Below, one piece after another: positions 5,378-38,279 of a stretch of 38,279 nt of DNA. Position numbers and translations under genes: made by a program. The stretch comes from a virus. The stretch is from positions 1-38,279 of the IMG/VR virus record IMGVR_UViG_3300020213_000058; one strand, given 5' to 3'. The notes under the pieces were generated by a model, which was given only the letters and a program-made list of their open reading frames with translations, did no database searches and was not told the DNA's origin. Within the stretch, counting starts at the first letter, position 1, and each line of letters begins with the position of its first letter.

Positions 5378-5815
5378 ATGCCAACAACCATAGACAAGCG
5401 AAGAAAAAACCACCCGATGTATAAGTCGTGGTGTCATATCAAGCAACGTTGCGGTAACCTCAACGACGCTGCTTATGAGAGCTATGGGGGCAGAGGTATT
5501 ACCTATTCCAAAGATTGGGAAAATTTCGAAGGGTTTTACAAGGATATGGGTTCGAGCTGGGAACTCGGACTTTCAATTGACCGAGTAAACAACGACGGGG
5601 ATTACTGTAAAGAAAACTGTCGCTGGGCAACTCGCAAAGTGCAGAACAACAATACTCGGAGAAATCGTTACATCAAGGTTAACAACATTTGTAAAACGCT
5701 CTCCCAGTGGAGCGATTATACAGGGCTAAAGTCAAGTACTATTCGTCAGAGAATCGATGCTTACGGCTGGTCTGTAGAAAAAGCTCTTAACATTAACCAG
5801 AAAGAAGGATATTAA
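5378..5815 (+). CDS. HNH homing-type endonuclease
   Basis: 145 residues. The HNH core is around residues 66-86, with SIDRVNNDGDYC then KENCRWAT, the hallmark of phage HNH homing enzymes; Cys25, Cys77 and Cys81 may bind zinc. Residues 103-135 look like a helix-turn-helix DNA-binding tail (NUMOD-like: LSQWSDYTGLKSSTIRQRI). It sits between two structural genes, so it is probably a selfish free-standing insertion rather than part of virion assembly. The start has GAAAGG upstream and follows RNA motif copy B. The next gene begins one base after its stop. Confidence 0.85.
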   Translation: MPTTIDKRRKNHPMYKSWCHIKQRCGNLNDAAYESYGGRGITYSKDWENFEGFYKDMGSSWELGLSIDRVNNDGDYCKENCRWATRKVQNNNTRRNRYIKVNNICKTLSQWSDYTGLKSSTIRQRIDAYGWSVEKALNINQKEGY

Positions 5816-7582: not shown

Positions 7583-8137
7583 CTAACGTGTTAATACAAT
7601 CTTAGAGCGATCAATATACTTGTTACAGTCTTGTACAATAGCTAACATATAACTATCGGTTGATTCTGTGCAATAAATACTAAACAATTCGCTATCGTTG
7701 AAAATACCATTTTGTATGTATACATCCATGCGTCTTTGCATATCAGGGTCTTTGGCATAGGCAGCATTAAGCGCATCACTAAGCCGAGTACGGTCTGCTT
7801 TTGTCATAACTTCAAACCATACAAAGTGTAGGTATTCATGTGCAAGGGTTCGTCTTGACTCATCTATACTGAGGTCGTTACGGATAGTTATATTGTAATA
7901 GAAATATCGACCTGTACCGTCTACAAGGTTGCCAAAACTAAGCTCTAAGTATTCGATATCAACATCACCCGTTCGGAGCGTACCAAGTAGGTCGTATATT
8001 TGTCTCTCTTGTTTTATTACTGGCTTAACATACTGAACAACAGGAGGTTGAACATAAGGGAATAGATAAGGTATAGCGAATATAAGGGCATTGCTAAGTG
8101 CGAGTAATGTGAGGATGATTGATAGTATTATCTTCAT
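7583..8137 (-). CDS. Membrane-anchored HExxH zinc metallopeptidase, reverse strand
   Basis: 184 residues from the ATG at 8137. N-terminal hydrophobic segment (residues ~3-29) acts as signal anchor, then a Pro/Val linker and an extracellular catalytic domain. HEYLH at 100-104 gives the two zinc His and catalytic Glu101; Glu150 (NDSELF) is a candidate third ligand, as in gluzincins; Cys156 and Cys171 may form a disulphide. A longer frame from 8173 is unlikely because its first 12 codons overlap the promoter. It is the only minus-strand gene in the structural block, with its own promoter and probably a leaderless mRNA. Cell-surface modification or host-derived cargo are the likely roles; lysis is another option. 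Confidence 0.75.
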   Translation of the reverse strand: MKIILSIILTLLALSNALIFAIPYLFPYVQPPVVQYVKPVIKQERQIYDLLGTLRTGDVDIEYLELSFGNLVDGTGRYFYYNITIRNDLSIDESRRTLAHEYLHFVWFEVMTKADRTRLSDALNAAYAKDPDMQRRMDVYIQNGIFNDSELFSIYCTESTDSYMLAIVQDCNKYIDRSKIVLTR

Positions 8138-8143
8138 GCCATA

Positions 8144-8173
8144 CTTATACCATATGCTAATGGTTAAAGTCAA
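8144..8173 (-). promoter_or_regulatory. Promoter of the reverse-strand peptidase
   Basis: On the minus strand: TTGACT (8173-8168), 18-base spacer ending in TGG (extended -10), TATAAG (8149-8144). The ATG at 8137 follows six bases after the -10, so transcription would start at or within a base of the initiator A, leaving no room for a ribosome site. Confidence 0.65.
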
Positions 8174-18358: not shown

Positions 18359-19288
18359 ATGCGTCCAATCTTCCCAATGAAATACCTGAACATTACACAG
18401 GGGCATAGAGGGGGTACGCATAAAGCTGGGTTTCCTATTGATATAGCAGGTAAAGATACAGGCATAGATGATGTGTTCGCTCCGTTCGATGGCATGATTA
18501 ACAAGATATATGAACCTAACAATTCTGCTCTTGGTCACACAGTATGGCTAGAAAGCACATCACCTGTGACGTATGCAGATGGTACGGTAGACTTCGCCAC
18601 TATTATGCTGACACACGACAATGCAGTAACAGACCTCCGTGTAGGACAGATTGTCAAACAAGGGCAAGTATTCTATCAAGAGGGTACGGCTGGGTTCGCT
18701 ACTGGCAATCATGTACATTTAGAGGTTGCAAGGGGCAAGATGGCTGGTTTAGGCTGGCAACAAGTAAACGGCAGCTGGATAATTACCAATCCGTATGAAC
18801 CACACAAAATGTTTTTTTTAAGTGATACAATAATAATAAATGGATTTGGTTATCCATGGAAAGAATTAGAGACTGAAATGATTATACAGAATGCACCTAA
18901 CTGGCGAGGACGATGCAATAAAACAATGTATCAAATGCGTGGTCGCAACCTTAGCGACGAGGAGTTTGTTAAACACGCTGTCGGAGCTGAGTTTCTTCGC
19001 TGGGTGGAAGCCGTCTCTGACAACGCTGAGGCAGATACCGCTACTAACTGGCAGGAAGTCGGCAAGGTTGCTGTGACTGACGGTTGGGCTGCTCACATAA
19101 CAGACCTCACAAAACAATTATCCGCAAAGCCTAAAGAAGTGATTGTGACCGTAGAAGTACCAGTAGAGATTATCAAAGAAGTGCCTGTTGAGATCATCAA
19201 AGAAATTAGAATGCCCGTTGAGATAGATGGCTTATCGGTGGGTGAGTTACTATCGGCTATATGGGCTAAGCTGTTCAAGATTAAATAG
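18359..19288 (+). CDS. M23-family peptidase endolysin
   Basis: 309 residues. N-terminal LytM/M23 domain (~1-150): His21 and Asp28 in HKAGFPIDIA are zinc ligands, His86 is a candidate catalytic His, and His118-Val-His120 (GNHVHLEV) completes the site. M23 enzymes cut peptide bridges of peptidoglycan. No signal peptide, so export depends on a holin, supplied by the gene at 19389. Residues ~150-260 are an unassigned domain that may bind the wall. The tail repeats VEVPVEIIKEVPVEIIKE before the end, a feature seen in phage lysins and spikes. AAAGGAG precedes the ATG. Confidence 0.85.
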   Translation: MRPIFPMKYLNITQGHRGGTHKAGFPIDIAGKDTGIDDVFAPFDGMINKIYEPNNSALGHTVWLESTSPVTYADGTVDFATIMLTHDNAVTDLRVGQIVKQGQVFYQEGTAGFATGNHVHLEVARGKMAGLGWQQVNGSWIITNPYEPHKMFFLSDTIIINGFGYPWKELETEMIIQNAPNWRGRCNKTMYQMRGRNLSDEEFVKHAVGAEFLRWVEAVSDNAEADTATNWQEVGKVAVTDGWAAHITDLTKQLSAKPKEVIVTVEVPVEIIKEVPVEIIKEIRMPVEIDGLSVGELLSAIWAKLFKIK

Positions 19289-19388
19289 GAGGATTATGAA
19301 AAGTTGAAGAGAATACGAGCTAACACCTCAAATGCGAAGTTCAATCAATCTAATCATTAAAAAGGCGAGAGCCGAAAGGAAATATCAA

Positions 19389-19625
19389 ATGTCAGACCTA
19401 ATCACCAGTTATATCAGAACAATAATCCCACTCATCGTAGGGGCAATCGTAGCGTACTTTGCACAAAAAGGGTTCAATATACCACTTGAGCTTGTAACAG
19501 CAACCAGCGGCTTCCTAACAGCCCTAGCGGCGTTCACATACTACGCTATCGTTCGTAAACTAGAAACTAAACACCCTAAAATCGGCTACTTTCTGGGTAT
19601 ACCGAAAGCACCTGAGTATAAATAA
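19389..19625 (+). CDS. Holin (two transmembrane segments)
   Basis: 78 residues from ATG 19389 with GAAAGGAAA upstream; a longer frame from 19332 adds 19 basic residues over the ribosome site and is rejected. Two hydrophobic helices, about 10-25 and 35-55, then a basic tail (KLETKHPKIGYFLG). Size, topology and position right after the endolysin fit a class II holin that opens the membrane for the M23 enzyme. The stop overlaps the next start. Confidence 0.78.
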   Translation: MSDLITSYIRTIIPLIVGAIVAYFAQKGFNIPLELVTATSGFLTALAAFTYYAIVRKLETKHPKIGYFLGIPKAPEYK

Positions 19626-23467: not shown

Positions 23468-23531
23468 TATTTACCCCTTATTTTTAGATGCCCTTAATAG
23501 TCCTATCTACTAGGTCAGAACACGTTTATGG

Positions 23532-23560
23532 ATTATCGGATGTCATACTTTCGATCGAAA
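23532..23560 (-). promoter_or_regulatory. Possible promoter and palindromic operator of the minus operon
   Basis: A perfect 12-base palindrome TTTCGATCGAAA (23549-23560) lies 82 bases upstream of ATG 23467. Its right half would serve as a -35 (TTTCGA on minus, 23560-23555) with a 17-base spacer and GATAAT (23537-23532). A dimeric repressor site overlapping the promoter is plausible. Confidence 0.4.
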
Positions 23561-23582
23561 AGCTGACTTGTATTTGAGAGCC

Positions 23583-23629
23583 AAAAAACAGCCATATTTC
23601 AGGCTGCCTTTGGTTACTACGTCTATCTG
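23583..23629 (-). ncRNA. Candidate minus-strand small RNA 5
   Basis: About 47 nt from the start near 23629. It contains GATAGACGTAGTAA (the minus strand of 23614-23627), then hairpin CAGCC/GGCTG (23606-23602 with 23593-23589) and six T. The 14-mer is exactly complementary to a segment of the next minus-strand RNA (23732-23719). Confidence 0.55.
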
Positions 23630-23635
23630 CGTATA

Positions 23636-23664
23636 ATTATAGCAAAGATAGCGAGCCAATGCAA
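23636..23664 (-). promoter_or_regulatory. Promoter of minus-strand small RNA 5
   Basis: Minus strand: TTGCAT (23664-23659), 17-base spacer ending TTTGC, TATAAT (23641-23636); TGC extends the -10. Confidence 0.6.
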
Positions 23665-23693
23665 GCCTGAAATTAGGTTTTTATAACTAATAC

Positions 23694-23738
23694 AAAAACT
23701 CCTAGGGCTTACTACATTGATAGACGTAGTAAGTCCAT
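23694..23738 (-). ncRNA. Candidate minus-strand small RNA 6 (complementary to RNA 5)
   Basis: About 45 nt if it stops at the T5 run (23698-23694). Hairpin CTTACTAC/GTAGTAAG (23733-23726 with 23715-23708). Nine bases separate the stem from the T run, so termination is uncertain and read-through into RNA 5 is possible. Its loop and 5' stem arm contain the 14-mer complementary to RNA 5. Confidence 0.45.
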
Positions 23739-23744
23739 AGCTCT

Positions 23745-23772
23745 ATTATACTTGAAAATAAACTTATTACAA
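23745..23772 (-). promoter_or_regulatory. Promoter of minus-strand small RNA 6
   Basis: Minus strand: TTGTAA (23772-23767), 16-base spacer, TATAAT (23750-23745). Confidence 0.5.
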
Positions 23773-23803
23773 TAGCCATAAGTGGCATGTGCATAACCTG
23801 TGC

Positions 23804-23840
23804 AAAATAAACAGCCTCCAAGTGTGAAGCTGAGAGGCTG
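23804..23840 (-). terminator. Intrinsic terminator of RNA 7
   Basis: Minus strand: CAGCCTC (23840-23834) pairs with GAGGCTG (23818-23812), 15-base loop, then TTTTATTTT. Confidence 0.7.
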
Positions 23841-23933
23841 AGTGGTTAGTTAGATAGCTAGGGAGGTAGCTACTATCACGTAAGGGGTATTTGACCCAAG
23901 GTGCGATCGTACTGACAAGCACGATATAGCTAC

Positions 23934-23985
23934 ATACTAGCACAAGCGGTATCACAAGTAAATAGACCTCCGTTAGAAAGGATTA
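23934..23985 (+). repeat. Degenerate fourth copy of the early promoter cassette
   Basis: Plus strand carries TACTAGCA, a weak -10 (TATCAC 23950-23955) and TTAGAAAGGATT (23973-23984), the same order as in the three intact cassettes, but with longer spacing and no ATG. This is where RNA 7 acquires its complementarity to the leaders. Confidence 0.45.
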
Positions 23986-24026
23986 TTCTTATAAAAGAGT
24001 AAATCACACGGAAGTCTATTTGCCTA

Positions 24027-24055
24027 ATAATACCATTATAGAGGTTAGTTGTAAA
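24027..24055 (-). promoter_or_regulatory. Promoter of RNA 7
   Basis: Minus strand: TTTACA (24055-24050), 17-base spacer ending TGG, TATTAT (24032-24027). It is back to back with the recombination-operon promoter at 24061-24089. Confidence 0.6.
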
Positions 24056-24060
24056 TATAG

Positions 24061-24089
24061 TAGACAAGCACTAGCAGGTGTGGTACAAT
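24061..24089 (+). promoter_or_regulatory. Early promoter cassette 1 (recombination operon)
   Basis: TAGACA (24061-24066), 17-base spacer containing CACTAGCA (24069-24076) and ending TGTGG, TACAAT (24084-24089). Eleven bases later comes AATCAGTAGAAAGGATT (24101-24117), which supplies the ribosome site for ATG 24120. The spacer box is shared with cassettes 2 and 3. Confidence 0.72.
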
Positions 24090-24119
24090 TAGGGTATATC
24101 AATCAGTAGAAAGGATTGT

Positions 24120-27293: not shown

Positions 27294-27310
27294 TAAAACG
27301 AAAGGACTAT

Positions 27311-27517
27311 ATGTCTAAAAAAGTAGAGGGTGAACGCCCACAGAAAGTACCAAAAACAATTAAAGTATTCACATTAGTAAAAGGCTTTGCAGTAGTTATT
27401 GCTATTGTTGTTGCTTTTATAAGTGGATGGTTTGTGCAGAAGTACGATCAAGGTCGTGTAACAGCAGAAGCATACCAAATTGTTGAACAAGCCCAAGAGT
27501 TAAAAGAAAACCAGTAG
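27311..27517 (+). CDS. Membrane-anchor ORF, probable N-terminal part of a frameshifted transglycosylase
   Basis: 68 residues, AAAGGA upstream of ATG 27311. A basic N-terminus, one transmembrane helix (residues ~20-42, VFTLVKGFAVVIAIVVAFISGWFV) and a short helical stem ending at TAG 27515. The -1 frame is open from 27487 and encodes a Pro-rich linker plus transglycosylase domain with no start codon of its own. A ribosomal -1 shift within 27487-27517 would yield an anchored 201-residue enzyme. Alternatively this ORF acts alone as a small membrane protein. Confidence 0.65.
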   Translation: MSKKVEGERPQKVPKTIKVFTLVKGFAVVIAIVVAFISGWFVQKYDQGRVTAEAYQIVEQAQELKENQ

Positions 27518-27918
27518 TTACTACAGCCGTACCTACTGAGCCACCCCAGGCTGTTGAAATTAAAGTACCTGAACAAGTTGTCGCATCAGCACCAATAACC
27601 CCACCTGTAGCCTCACAAGCGGTCACAGGGGATATTGAGGGCATAGTACGACAAGCTGCACGCAAGTATGGTATCAGCGAGGACTATTTTGTGAAAATTG
27701 CACGTTGTGAGAGTACCTTAAATCCAAGTGCGGTCAATTACAACTACTATGAAAACGGACACCCTAGCGGACTGTTCCAGCACATCAGTGGTTATTGGCC
27801 TGCAAGAGCAGCAAAGTACGGTTACGCAGGTGCAAGTGTCTTTGACGCTACAGCTAACGCAAATGTAACCGCCCAGATGTTCCGAGATGGAGCAAGCAAC
27901 CTATGGGAGTGCAGATAA
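27487..27918 (+). CDS. Lytic transglycosylase (SLT/lysozyme-like) domain lacking its own start
   Basis: About 143 residues in the -1 frame relative to the upstream ORF. A Pro/Val linker ([15 protein letters not shown]) leads into the catalytic domain: [22 protein letters not shown] with the catalytic Glu in CESTLNP, then [18 protein letters not shown]. This resembles compact wall-cleaving domains. The only in-frame start (GTG 27691) lies inside the domain and would remove its first helix, so the protein is best read as a frameshift fusion with the membrane anchor. It likely works at the cell surface in wall turnover or lysis. A sequencing error or pseudogene are alternatives. Confidence 0.7.
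27501..27538 (+). promoter_or_regulatory. Candidate -1 frameshift site and stimulatory hairpin
   Basis: A-rich TAAAAGAAAAC (27501-27511) precedes stem CAGTAG/CTACTG (27512-27517 with 27533-27538), whose loop contains an inner TAC/GTA pairing (27522-27524 with 27529-27531). The zero-frame stop TAG is inside the stem. The heptamer is not a classical X-XXY-YYZ, so slippage may rest on one tRNA-Lys at A-AAA. Confidence 0.4.
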
Positions 27919-27935
27919 CTAATAAGGAGAATACA

Positions 27936-28613
27936 ATGACCAAATTAACAAAAGAACAGGCACTCGCTAAAATCAAAGAACTAAAACAATACGTTGACCA
28001 AGTAGACAATAAGGTCGAAAAAGTAGTTGGAATAGCTATTAAATCACGATTTGGAGGCGCTACTATTCTTTACCAATCCACTAAAACCACGATTAGAGAA
28101 GCGGTTGAGGAGGCGGTTGCTAGTGGTGCTAACCTGAGTGATGCTAACCTGAGTGATGCTGACCTGAGTGATGCTAACCTGCGTGGTGCTAACCTGAGTG
28201 CTGCTAACCTGAGTGATGCTGACCTGAGTGATGCTGACCTGTTTGATGCTAACCTGAGTGATGCTGACCTGAGTGATGCTAACCTGCGTGGTGCTAACCT
28301 GAGTGCTGCTAACCTGAGTGATGCTGACCTGAGTGATGCTGACCTGTTTGATGCTAACCTGAGTGATGCTGACCTGAGTGATGCTAACCTGCGTGGTGCT
28401 AACCTGTTTGGTGCTGACCTGGGTCGTGCTGACCTGACTGGTGCTAACCTGTTTGGTGCTAACCTGAGTGATGCTAACCTGTTTGGTGCTAACCTGAGTG
28501 ATGCTGAATTACATAATGCCAAGTTTTATGGAAAAGGCGGAACGCAAATACTCAAACGCTCACAATTACCCGCTTTTCTAGGCGCACTAGGGTTCATAAT
28601 CGAGGAATCATAA
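27936..28613 (+). CDS. Pentapeptide-repeat protein
   Basis: 225 residues from ATG 27936 (AAGGAG upstream); a longer frame from 27903 is rejected. Residues 1-60 are a helical N-terminal domain ([34 protein letters not shown]). From ~64 to ~195 it is a run of A(N/D)LSX repeats, which fold as a right-handed quadrilateral beta helix resembling B-DNA; such proteins can inhibit gyrase or shield DNA. A C-terminal ~25-residue cap follows. The DNA has a perfect 105-bp tandem duplication, and array Leu codons are all CTG, unlike neighbours (CTA, CTT, TTA), suggesting recent expansion from a foreign seed. Confidence 0.85.
28158..28403 (+). repeat. Perfect 105-bp tandem duplication in the pentapeptide array
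   Basis: 28158-28262 and 28263-28367 are identical over 105 bases (35 codons, seven pentapeptides), and a third partial copy runs to about 28403. The identity implies very recent expansion or an assembly-sensitive, length-variable tract. Confidence 0.92.
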
Positions 28614-37840: not shown

Positions 37841-38279
37841 TCAAGACTTTATACACAGACAGCAAGACGGCAGCGCACACCTGGCGTGAGGATTACCCAT
37901 CATACGAACGACTTGCTGATAACGGACTGCTTGAAGGACTTGACCCCAACCTCCCCGAAGTAAACGATGGCTCACTTGCCGCTGCACTCTTTAAGTTACC
38001 TAAGCGTATCGTATCATCTAAACTATCAGGGACTATTAAAGCAATAGACCGTGACGAAGCGTGGCTATCTGAACTTGCCAACTTACAATGGCGTAATAAC
38101 ATCATCCCCAACGCTAACTCACAAGCACCATTCTCCCGCAAATGGAAAGATGCAGTCCGCAAGGCAGCTATATACGGCTCAGTGCCTGTTATTACCCTAT
38201 TTGTTAAGCGTGGTGAATACACAGGCTCAGACTTTATTATTGCTCAACCTCAAGATGTTACCTTAGAGCCTGGTAAAGT
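37816..38279 (+). CDS. Portal protein (N-terminal part; continues at base 2 of the window)
   Basis: First 154 codons of the portal from ATG 37816, cut by the window end. The N-terminus (ADLKTLYTDSKTAAHTW..YERLADNG) is helical and includes KLPKRIVSSKLSG, followed by the overlap. Joined with the segment at 2-1813 the protein is about 702 residues. The frame check is exact: base 71 corresponds to base 38182. Confidence 0.82.
   Translation, partial: MAYINKADLKTLYTDSKTAAHTWREDYPSYERLADNGLLEGLDPNLPEVNDGSLAAALFKLPKRIVSSKLSGTIKAIDRDEAWLSELANLQWRNNIIPNANSQAPFSRKWKDAVRKAAIYGSVPVITLFVKRGEYTGSDFIIAQPQDVTLEPGK
38112..38279. repeat. Terminal direct repeat (circular closure), right copy
   Basis: Matches bases 1-168 except at 38202 (T, versus C at 91), a synonymous difference (both Phe). 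Unique genome length is therefore 38,111 bp. Confidence 0.93.

Follow-up and report, generated by a model that had tools for sequence, protein, structure and literature searches.

A programmed -1 ribosomal frameshift, at a conserved A_AAA followed by an H-type pseudoknot, very probably joins a small membrane anchor to a cell-wall hydrolase in the phage studied here, and would hold the tethered enzyme at a low and constant share relative to the anchor peptide. The window analysed is virus record IMGVR_UViG_3300020213_000058 of IMG/VR, 38,279 nt in length. Directly readable in it and in its relatives are the layout of the locus, the slip codon, a co-varying pseudoknot, their conservation and the exchangeable enzyme domains.

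Anchor and enzyme lie in overlapping frames

Re-reading of the sequence gave exactly the coordinates that an initial annotation had assigned to the two frames, which overlap by 31 nt in the -1 direction (Table 1). The stop codon of the enzyme frame is at 27916–27918. The N side of the anchor carries a charge of +4 and its C side is neutral, so that, by the positive-inside rule, an N-in/C-out topology is predicted, with the C side and the enzyme facing outward.

Table 1. Coordinates of the features of the anchor-enzyme locus in the window.
Feature	Position	Strand	Remark
Shine-Dalgarno-like AAAGGA	27301–27306	+	upstream of the anchor ORF ATG; read from the sequence
Zero-frame anchor ORF, 68 aa, ATG start	27311–27517	+	single TM segment at about residues 19–37; counterparts in 17 relatives
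-1 enzyme frame	27487–27918	+	45-residue linker, predicted disordered, then SLT transglycosylase domain; without upstream start codon
Shift site G_TTA_AAA	27499–27505	+	conserved element A_AAA, 27502–27505, zero-frame in all loci
Spacer, shift site to pseudoknot, 6 nt	27506–27511	+	4–9 nt across the 16 perfect cases
Stem 1, 5' arm CAGTAG	27512–27517	+	holds the zero-frame stop TAG, 27515–27517
Stem 2, 5' arm ACAGCC	27523–27528	+	within the stem 1 loop
Stem 1, 3' arm CTACTG	27533–27538	+	
Stem 2, 3' arm GGCTGT	27549–27554	+	
Predicted catalytic glutamate codon, CES motif	27709–27711	+	invariant in 11/11 sequences of alignment A1; role inferred from the SLT family

The enzyme frame matched Pfam family SLT (PF01464, E=5e-7, 29.7 bits against a gathering score of 21.3), and the best PDB matches of its profile were to the lytic transglycosylase MltC. 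An AlphaFold model was of moderate quality (pLDDT 65); the top Foldseek matches were MltC and MltE, all lytic transglycosylases, with weak E-values. The frame is best read as an SLT-type wall-cutting domain, presumably muralytic. It resembles the MltC/MltE-like enzymes in domain and fold matches, but would reach the membrane by a TM anchor joined through frameshifting and not by a lipoprotein tail. Two cysteines, Cys 72 and Cys 140 of alignment A1, are invariant, one before the catalytic glutamate and the other at the C-terminal WEC. They likely form a disulphide, which would fit an extracytoplasmic location.

The frame relation is conserved in 17 further loci

Three kinds of search in IMG/VR (with the enzyme, an enzyme profile and an anchor profile) yielded 17 distinct further loci (L002–L012, L029, L036, L037, L067, L069 and L070); L067 has the same sequence as L068 over the stretch examined and was counted once. 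In all 17, a short ORF that encodes a single hydrophobic segment is followed, with a short overlap, by a wall-enzyme frame in -1. The mean Kyte-Doolittle (KD) value of the best 19-residue TM window is 2.70 in the window and 1.49–3.07 in the relatives, and the joined products, computed for 14 loci, measure 188–214 aa. A second scan with the anchor profile gave nothing new, searches with the enzyme domains of L029 and L012 gave no further members, and the phage and genome collections held distant SLT homologues only; L036 DNA had zero matches among phage records. Codon-position counts between close relatives were too few, or too disturbed by indels, for a test of selection.

In a single metagenomic contig, an indel from assembly or sequencing, or a decaying gene that has recently acquired a frameshift mutation, could give the same picture. 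However, the 17 other contigs, nearly all from other metagenomes, have this -1 relation with the same junction, and their invariant SLT residues are intact at protein identities as low as about 50%. Sequencing error, which the initial annotation had named as a danger to its reading, is therefore excluded, and the probability of an indel or a decaying gene is negligible.

One of the 17, L002 (IMGVR 3300020195_000004), is a near-identical phage: its capsid and terminase are 100% identical to those of the window, and its anchor and linker are the same. The second half of its SLT domain has diverged, and similarity also breaks in the M23 gene. To judge by this pattern, the differences between the two phages are a mosaic exchange inside wall-enzyme genes.

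Both kinds of relative that the initial annotation had suggested looking for exist, since besides the 17 loci with the same -1 relation, four homologues (L015, L017, L018 and L034) are fused in frame. In L017 a TM segment, a coiled coil and the SLT domain follow each other in one frame, and in L018 and L034 a signal-like segment precedes the SLT domain. What the in-frame relatives have in common, to judge by their sequences, is that the enzyme is exported or anchored, and the fused forms bear out the proposal that anchor, linker and enzyme joined make a coherent protein. L017 and L018 have two in-frame A_AAA codons each, neither followed by such a pseudoknot as described below, and L015 and L034 have none.

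The common slip element is A_AAA

A zero-frame A_AAA is found near the anchor stop in 18/18 loci, as TTA_AAA, TCA_AAA or GTA_AAA. Across the long ORFs of the window, this context occurs at 39 of 4703 codons. The slippery tract TAAAAGAAAAC proposed at first thus stood in part: its A_AAA at 27502–27505 is conserved, but the later AAAAC is not conserved in the relatives, and the slip element is therefore A_AAA and not the whole tract.

The accepted -1 motifs are of two classes, the heptamer X_XXY_YYZ and the tetramer Z_ZZN (PMC4066793). Among the 18 loci the canonical heptamer is absent except in L037 (T_TTA_AAA), the rest belonging to the tetramer class. Heptamer slippage with re-pairing in the P site was accordingly rejected as a general rule, the P-site codon being TTA, TCA or GTA. 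Because A_AAA is all that the loci have in common here, slippage of a single tRNA-Lys is likely. After re-pairing at the site of the window, the next codon would be AGA (27505–27507).

Sharma et al. found six motifs to be active in E. coli when combined with the IS3 pseudoknot, in a range of 0.26–5.6%, and A_AA.A was the weakest among them (PMC4066793), so the rate of frameshifting could be very low. By analogy, if the host of the phage decodes like E. coli, the enzyme would account for a small part of the output.

A co-varying pseudoknot follows the slip site

The stem CAGTAG/CTACTG that the initial annotation had noticed is present, and it is part of a larger structure: ACAGCC in its loop pairs with GGCTGT downstream, which makes the whole an H-type pseudoknot. 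Since each pseudoknot came from a search of the individual sequence, shuffled and background controls were needed. With one fixed search, a perfect-stem pseudoknot was found in 16/18 loci versus 4/3600 dinucleotide shuffles. The same search was positive at 32 of 1861 other AAAA sites (about 1.7%) across the viral loci collected up to that stage, at least one of these being a duplicate fetch of a family site. Across loci the spacer measures 4–9 nt, stem 1 5–9 bp and stem 2 5–8 bp. The two exceptions are L070, with one mismatch in stem 1 (by eye), and L010, where this geometry was not found and the hairpin geometry differs. As the window and L002 share their signal, and likewise L008 and L009, there are 16 distinct signals, 14 of them with the pseudoknot.

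MAFFT alignments of the signal and of the stem cores put gaps into the stems, and pairs were therefore counted by a script on the structure itself. For each stem, 13 sequences contained 10 different 5' five-mers, whose complementarity to their own partners was 100%, versus 45–49% to those of others. A clean compensatory change from A-T to G-C separates stem 1 of L037 (AATAACG/CGTTATT) from that of L067 (AATAGCG/CGCTATT). By these counts the signal co-varies as an RNA structure. Rfam contains no family at this signal.

Slippage of RNA polymerase, and not of the ribosome, on the A run at the junction would also give a shifted product. Known polymerase slippage tracts are far longer than the four A's that are conserved here, and a pseudoknot at 4–9 nt is a ribosomal signature, which makes this explanation extremely improbable.

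The enzyme frame has no conserved start codon

Alternatively, anchor and enzyme could be two separate genes, the second starting by itself near the anchor stop by coupled re-initiation or at a rare start codon. Overlapping genes are often coupled, and a GAGGA stands 7 bases upstream of GTG 27691. This GTG is the only ATG, GTG or TTG ahead of CES in the enzyme frame of the window; it lies inside the SLT domain, 5 residues before CES, and a start there would delete the first helix, just as the initial annotation had remarked. Of the 13 SLT-type loci compared, just 4 have a GTG at this position, and none of the 13 has an ATG more than 3 residues before CES. Positions of GTG and TTG in the -1 frame vary between loci, the linker lacks a conserved start codon, and in L010 there is no ATG, GTG or TTG at all before CES, which excludes independently started genes as a general explanation. 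Separate starts would moreover leave the conserved A_AAA and the co-varying pseudoknot unexplained. We consider them very unlikely, and the comparison of start codons over the relatives did not turn up the pairs of independent genes against which the initial annotation had warned. A -1 frameshift joining anchor to transglycosylase, which it had called probable, is by far the best reading, given the layout in 18/18 loci, the co-varying pseudoknot and the in-frame fusions.

Different enzymes behind the same anchor and signal

The anchor-plus-signal is followed by enzymes of three classes. Besides the SLT type, an aggregation-promoting-factor C-terminal domain (AggPromo_Cterm, NCBIfam NF052397, E from 5e-16 to 8e-25) follows the frameshift in L029, L067 and L069, and SLT_3 (E=4e-17) in L070. 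L012 has the anchor and linker type of the window with a different lysozyme-like domain (weak SLT_3). Homologues of the major capsid protein of the window were found in 6/20 carrier or in-frame records and those of its terminase in 2/20, some of the records being fragments. Because capsid and terminase homologues are few and the domains differ, the anchor-plus-signal can be said to occur in otherwise unrelated phages, with exchange of enzymes. Apart from one near-twin, 16 further phages, most of them unrelated, have the same arrangement. It is a conserved and apparently mobile recoding module that would limit the amount of a membrane-tethered wall hydrolase.

In about 12 loci (by eye) a NinG/HNH-like gene stands a few hundred bases ahead of the module; the window's copy of that gene has HNH/NinG matches. 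The anchor and SLT products of the window are encoded among middle genes. The same phage has a separate M23 endolysin-like gene (18359–19288) followed by a holin-like gene (19332–19625), which makes it improbable that the module is the main endolysin. No tRNA genes were found in the phage.

Directly downstream, at 27903–28613, a pentapeptide-repeat protein is encoded (PF00805, E=4e-39; DNA period of 15 bp, 25 registered copies). Two further ORFs lie among the structural genes: one on the minus strand among plus-strand genes (7583–8173), with a signal/TM start, a HEYLH zinc-protease-like motif and weak Pfam matches only, and a small HNH/AP2-like, homing-endonuclease-like one (5378–5815, by eye). 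A 650-bp non-coding region between divergent genes (23468–24119), with an inverted repeat (tactacgtcta/tagacgtagta) and several direct motifs, is a possible origin or transcription control region. The contig has a direct terminal repeat of 168 bp with 99% identity (1–168 and 38112–38279), and is probably a complete phage genome, circularly assembled or terminally redundant.

Discussion

We propose that translation begins at ATG 27311 and gives a single-pass membrane peptide of 68 aa. On reaching G_TTA_AAA, ribosomes would meet the pseudoknot 6 bases ahead, and a minority of them would slip one base back, tRNA-Lys re-pairing from AAA to the overlapping A_AA, and continue in the -1 frame. The shifted product would have 202 aa and consist of the membrane anchor, the disordered linker and an SLT-type wall-cutting domain outside the membrane, while the remaining ribosomes would terminate at TAG 27515–27517. 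The signal may thereby keep the tethered hydrolase a small, fixed fraction relative to the anchor peptide. From the sequences we infer that frameshifting occurs, its rate, the topology and selection for a fixed dose. The likeliest role is that of a tethered accessory or early wall-cutting enzyme, its dose capped at translation, beside the M23 endolysin and the holin-like gene. Control of wall damage through the ratio between the anchor-only and the full-length product, as first suggested, is plausible.

The frameshift may be real and the anchor-only peptide nevertheless the main, self-acting product (holin-, antiholin- or spanin-like), with the fusion secondary. A small N-in peptide with a single TM segment does resemble small lysis proteins, and there was one weak PHROG match to an Rz-like spanin (E=0.002). 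The anchor is however poorly conserved, with one invariant residue in its alignment (A3) versus 32 invariant columns in that of the enzyme domain (A1), and the in-frame relatives yield the fused form only. We regard a main role of the free anchor as rather unlikely. We tentatively suggest, as a possibility with less than an even chance, that the N-in TM anchor, the A_AAA and the H-type pseudoknot form a portable cassette that is passed between unrelated phages. It would fix a low dose of whichever hydrolase domain it carries, and the anchor-only peptide, made in abundance, would be a partner of the tethered enzyme or a brake on it.

The signal is like the -1 signals of the IS3/IS1 family in its tetramer-type slip site, a pseudoknot within about 5–8 nt and its two-protein output (PMC4066793). 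That family uses A_AAG, A_AAA and heptamers with a hairpin or pseudoknot (PMC4066793), whereas here the gene is that of a phage wall enzyme, the slip element is always A_AAA, never A_AAG, and the structure is an H-type pseudoknot. For tail chaperones G/GT and Ig-domain coat extensions of tailed phages, a -1 shift likewise yields two forms of a protein, one short and one extended, in a certain ratio (PMC5009743). Unlike these, the present gene is neither structural nor a chaperone, and it has a strong conserved pseudoknot; it encodes a TM anchor and an SLT domain, and not G/T-like proteins upstream of a tape measure gene. As in SAR endolysins, an N-terminal TM segment precedes a putative muralytic domain that would lie outside, but the segment appears strongly hydrophobic and the linker long, and membrane release is not indicated. 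Overlapping frames are involved in the expression of a phage lysin cited as ref 35 in PMC10885494; the likeness, of phage lysin and overlapping frames, is drawn from this citing mention. Reviews of phage frameshifting, in the parts consulted, treat tail chaperones and coat and tail extensions and mention no lysin (PMC5009743). Thus -1 frameshifting is known in phages, and a pseudoknot-driven anchor-hydrolase module looks undescribed in the literature found, some of it seen in part.

Gene callers would split such enzymes and miss their membrane anchors. The many natural variants of the pseudoknot may serve the study of bacterial frameshifting. In tailed phages, tail chaperones and coat extensions are the main known cases of a protein ratio set by frameshift. 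In the present loci it would concern a membrane-tethered cell-wall hydrolase, under a strongly structured, co-varying signal, and the case can be used to test why phages should control the dose of such an enzyme during translation.
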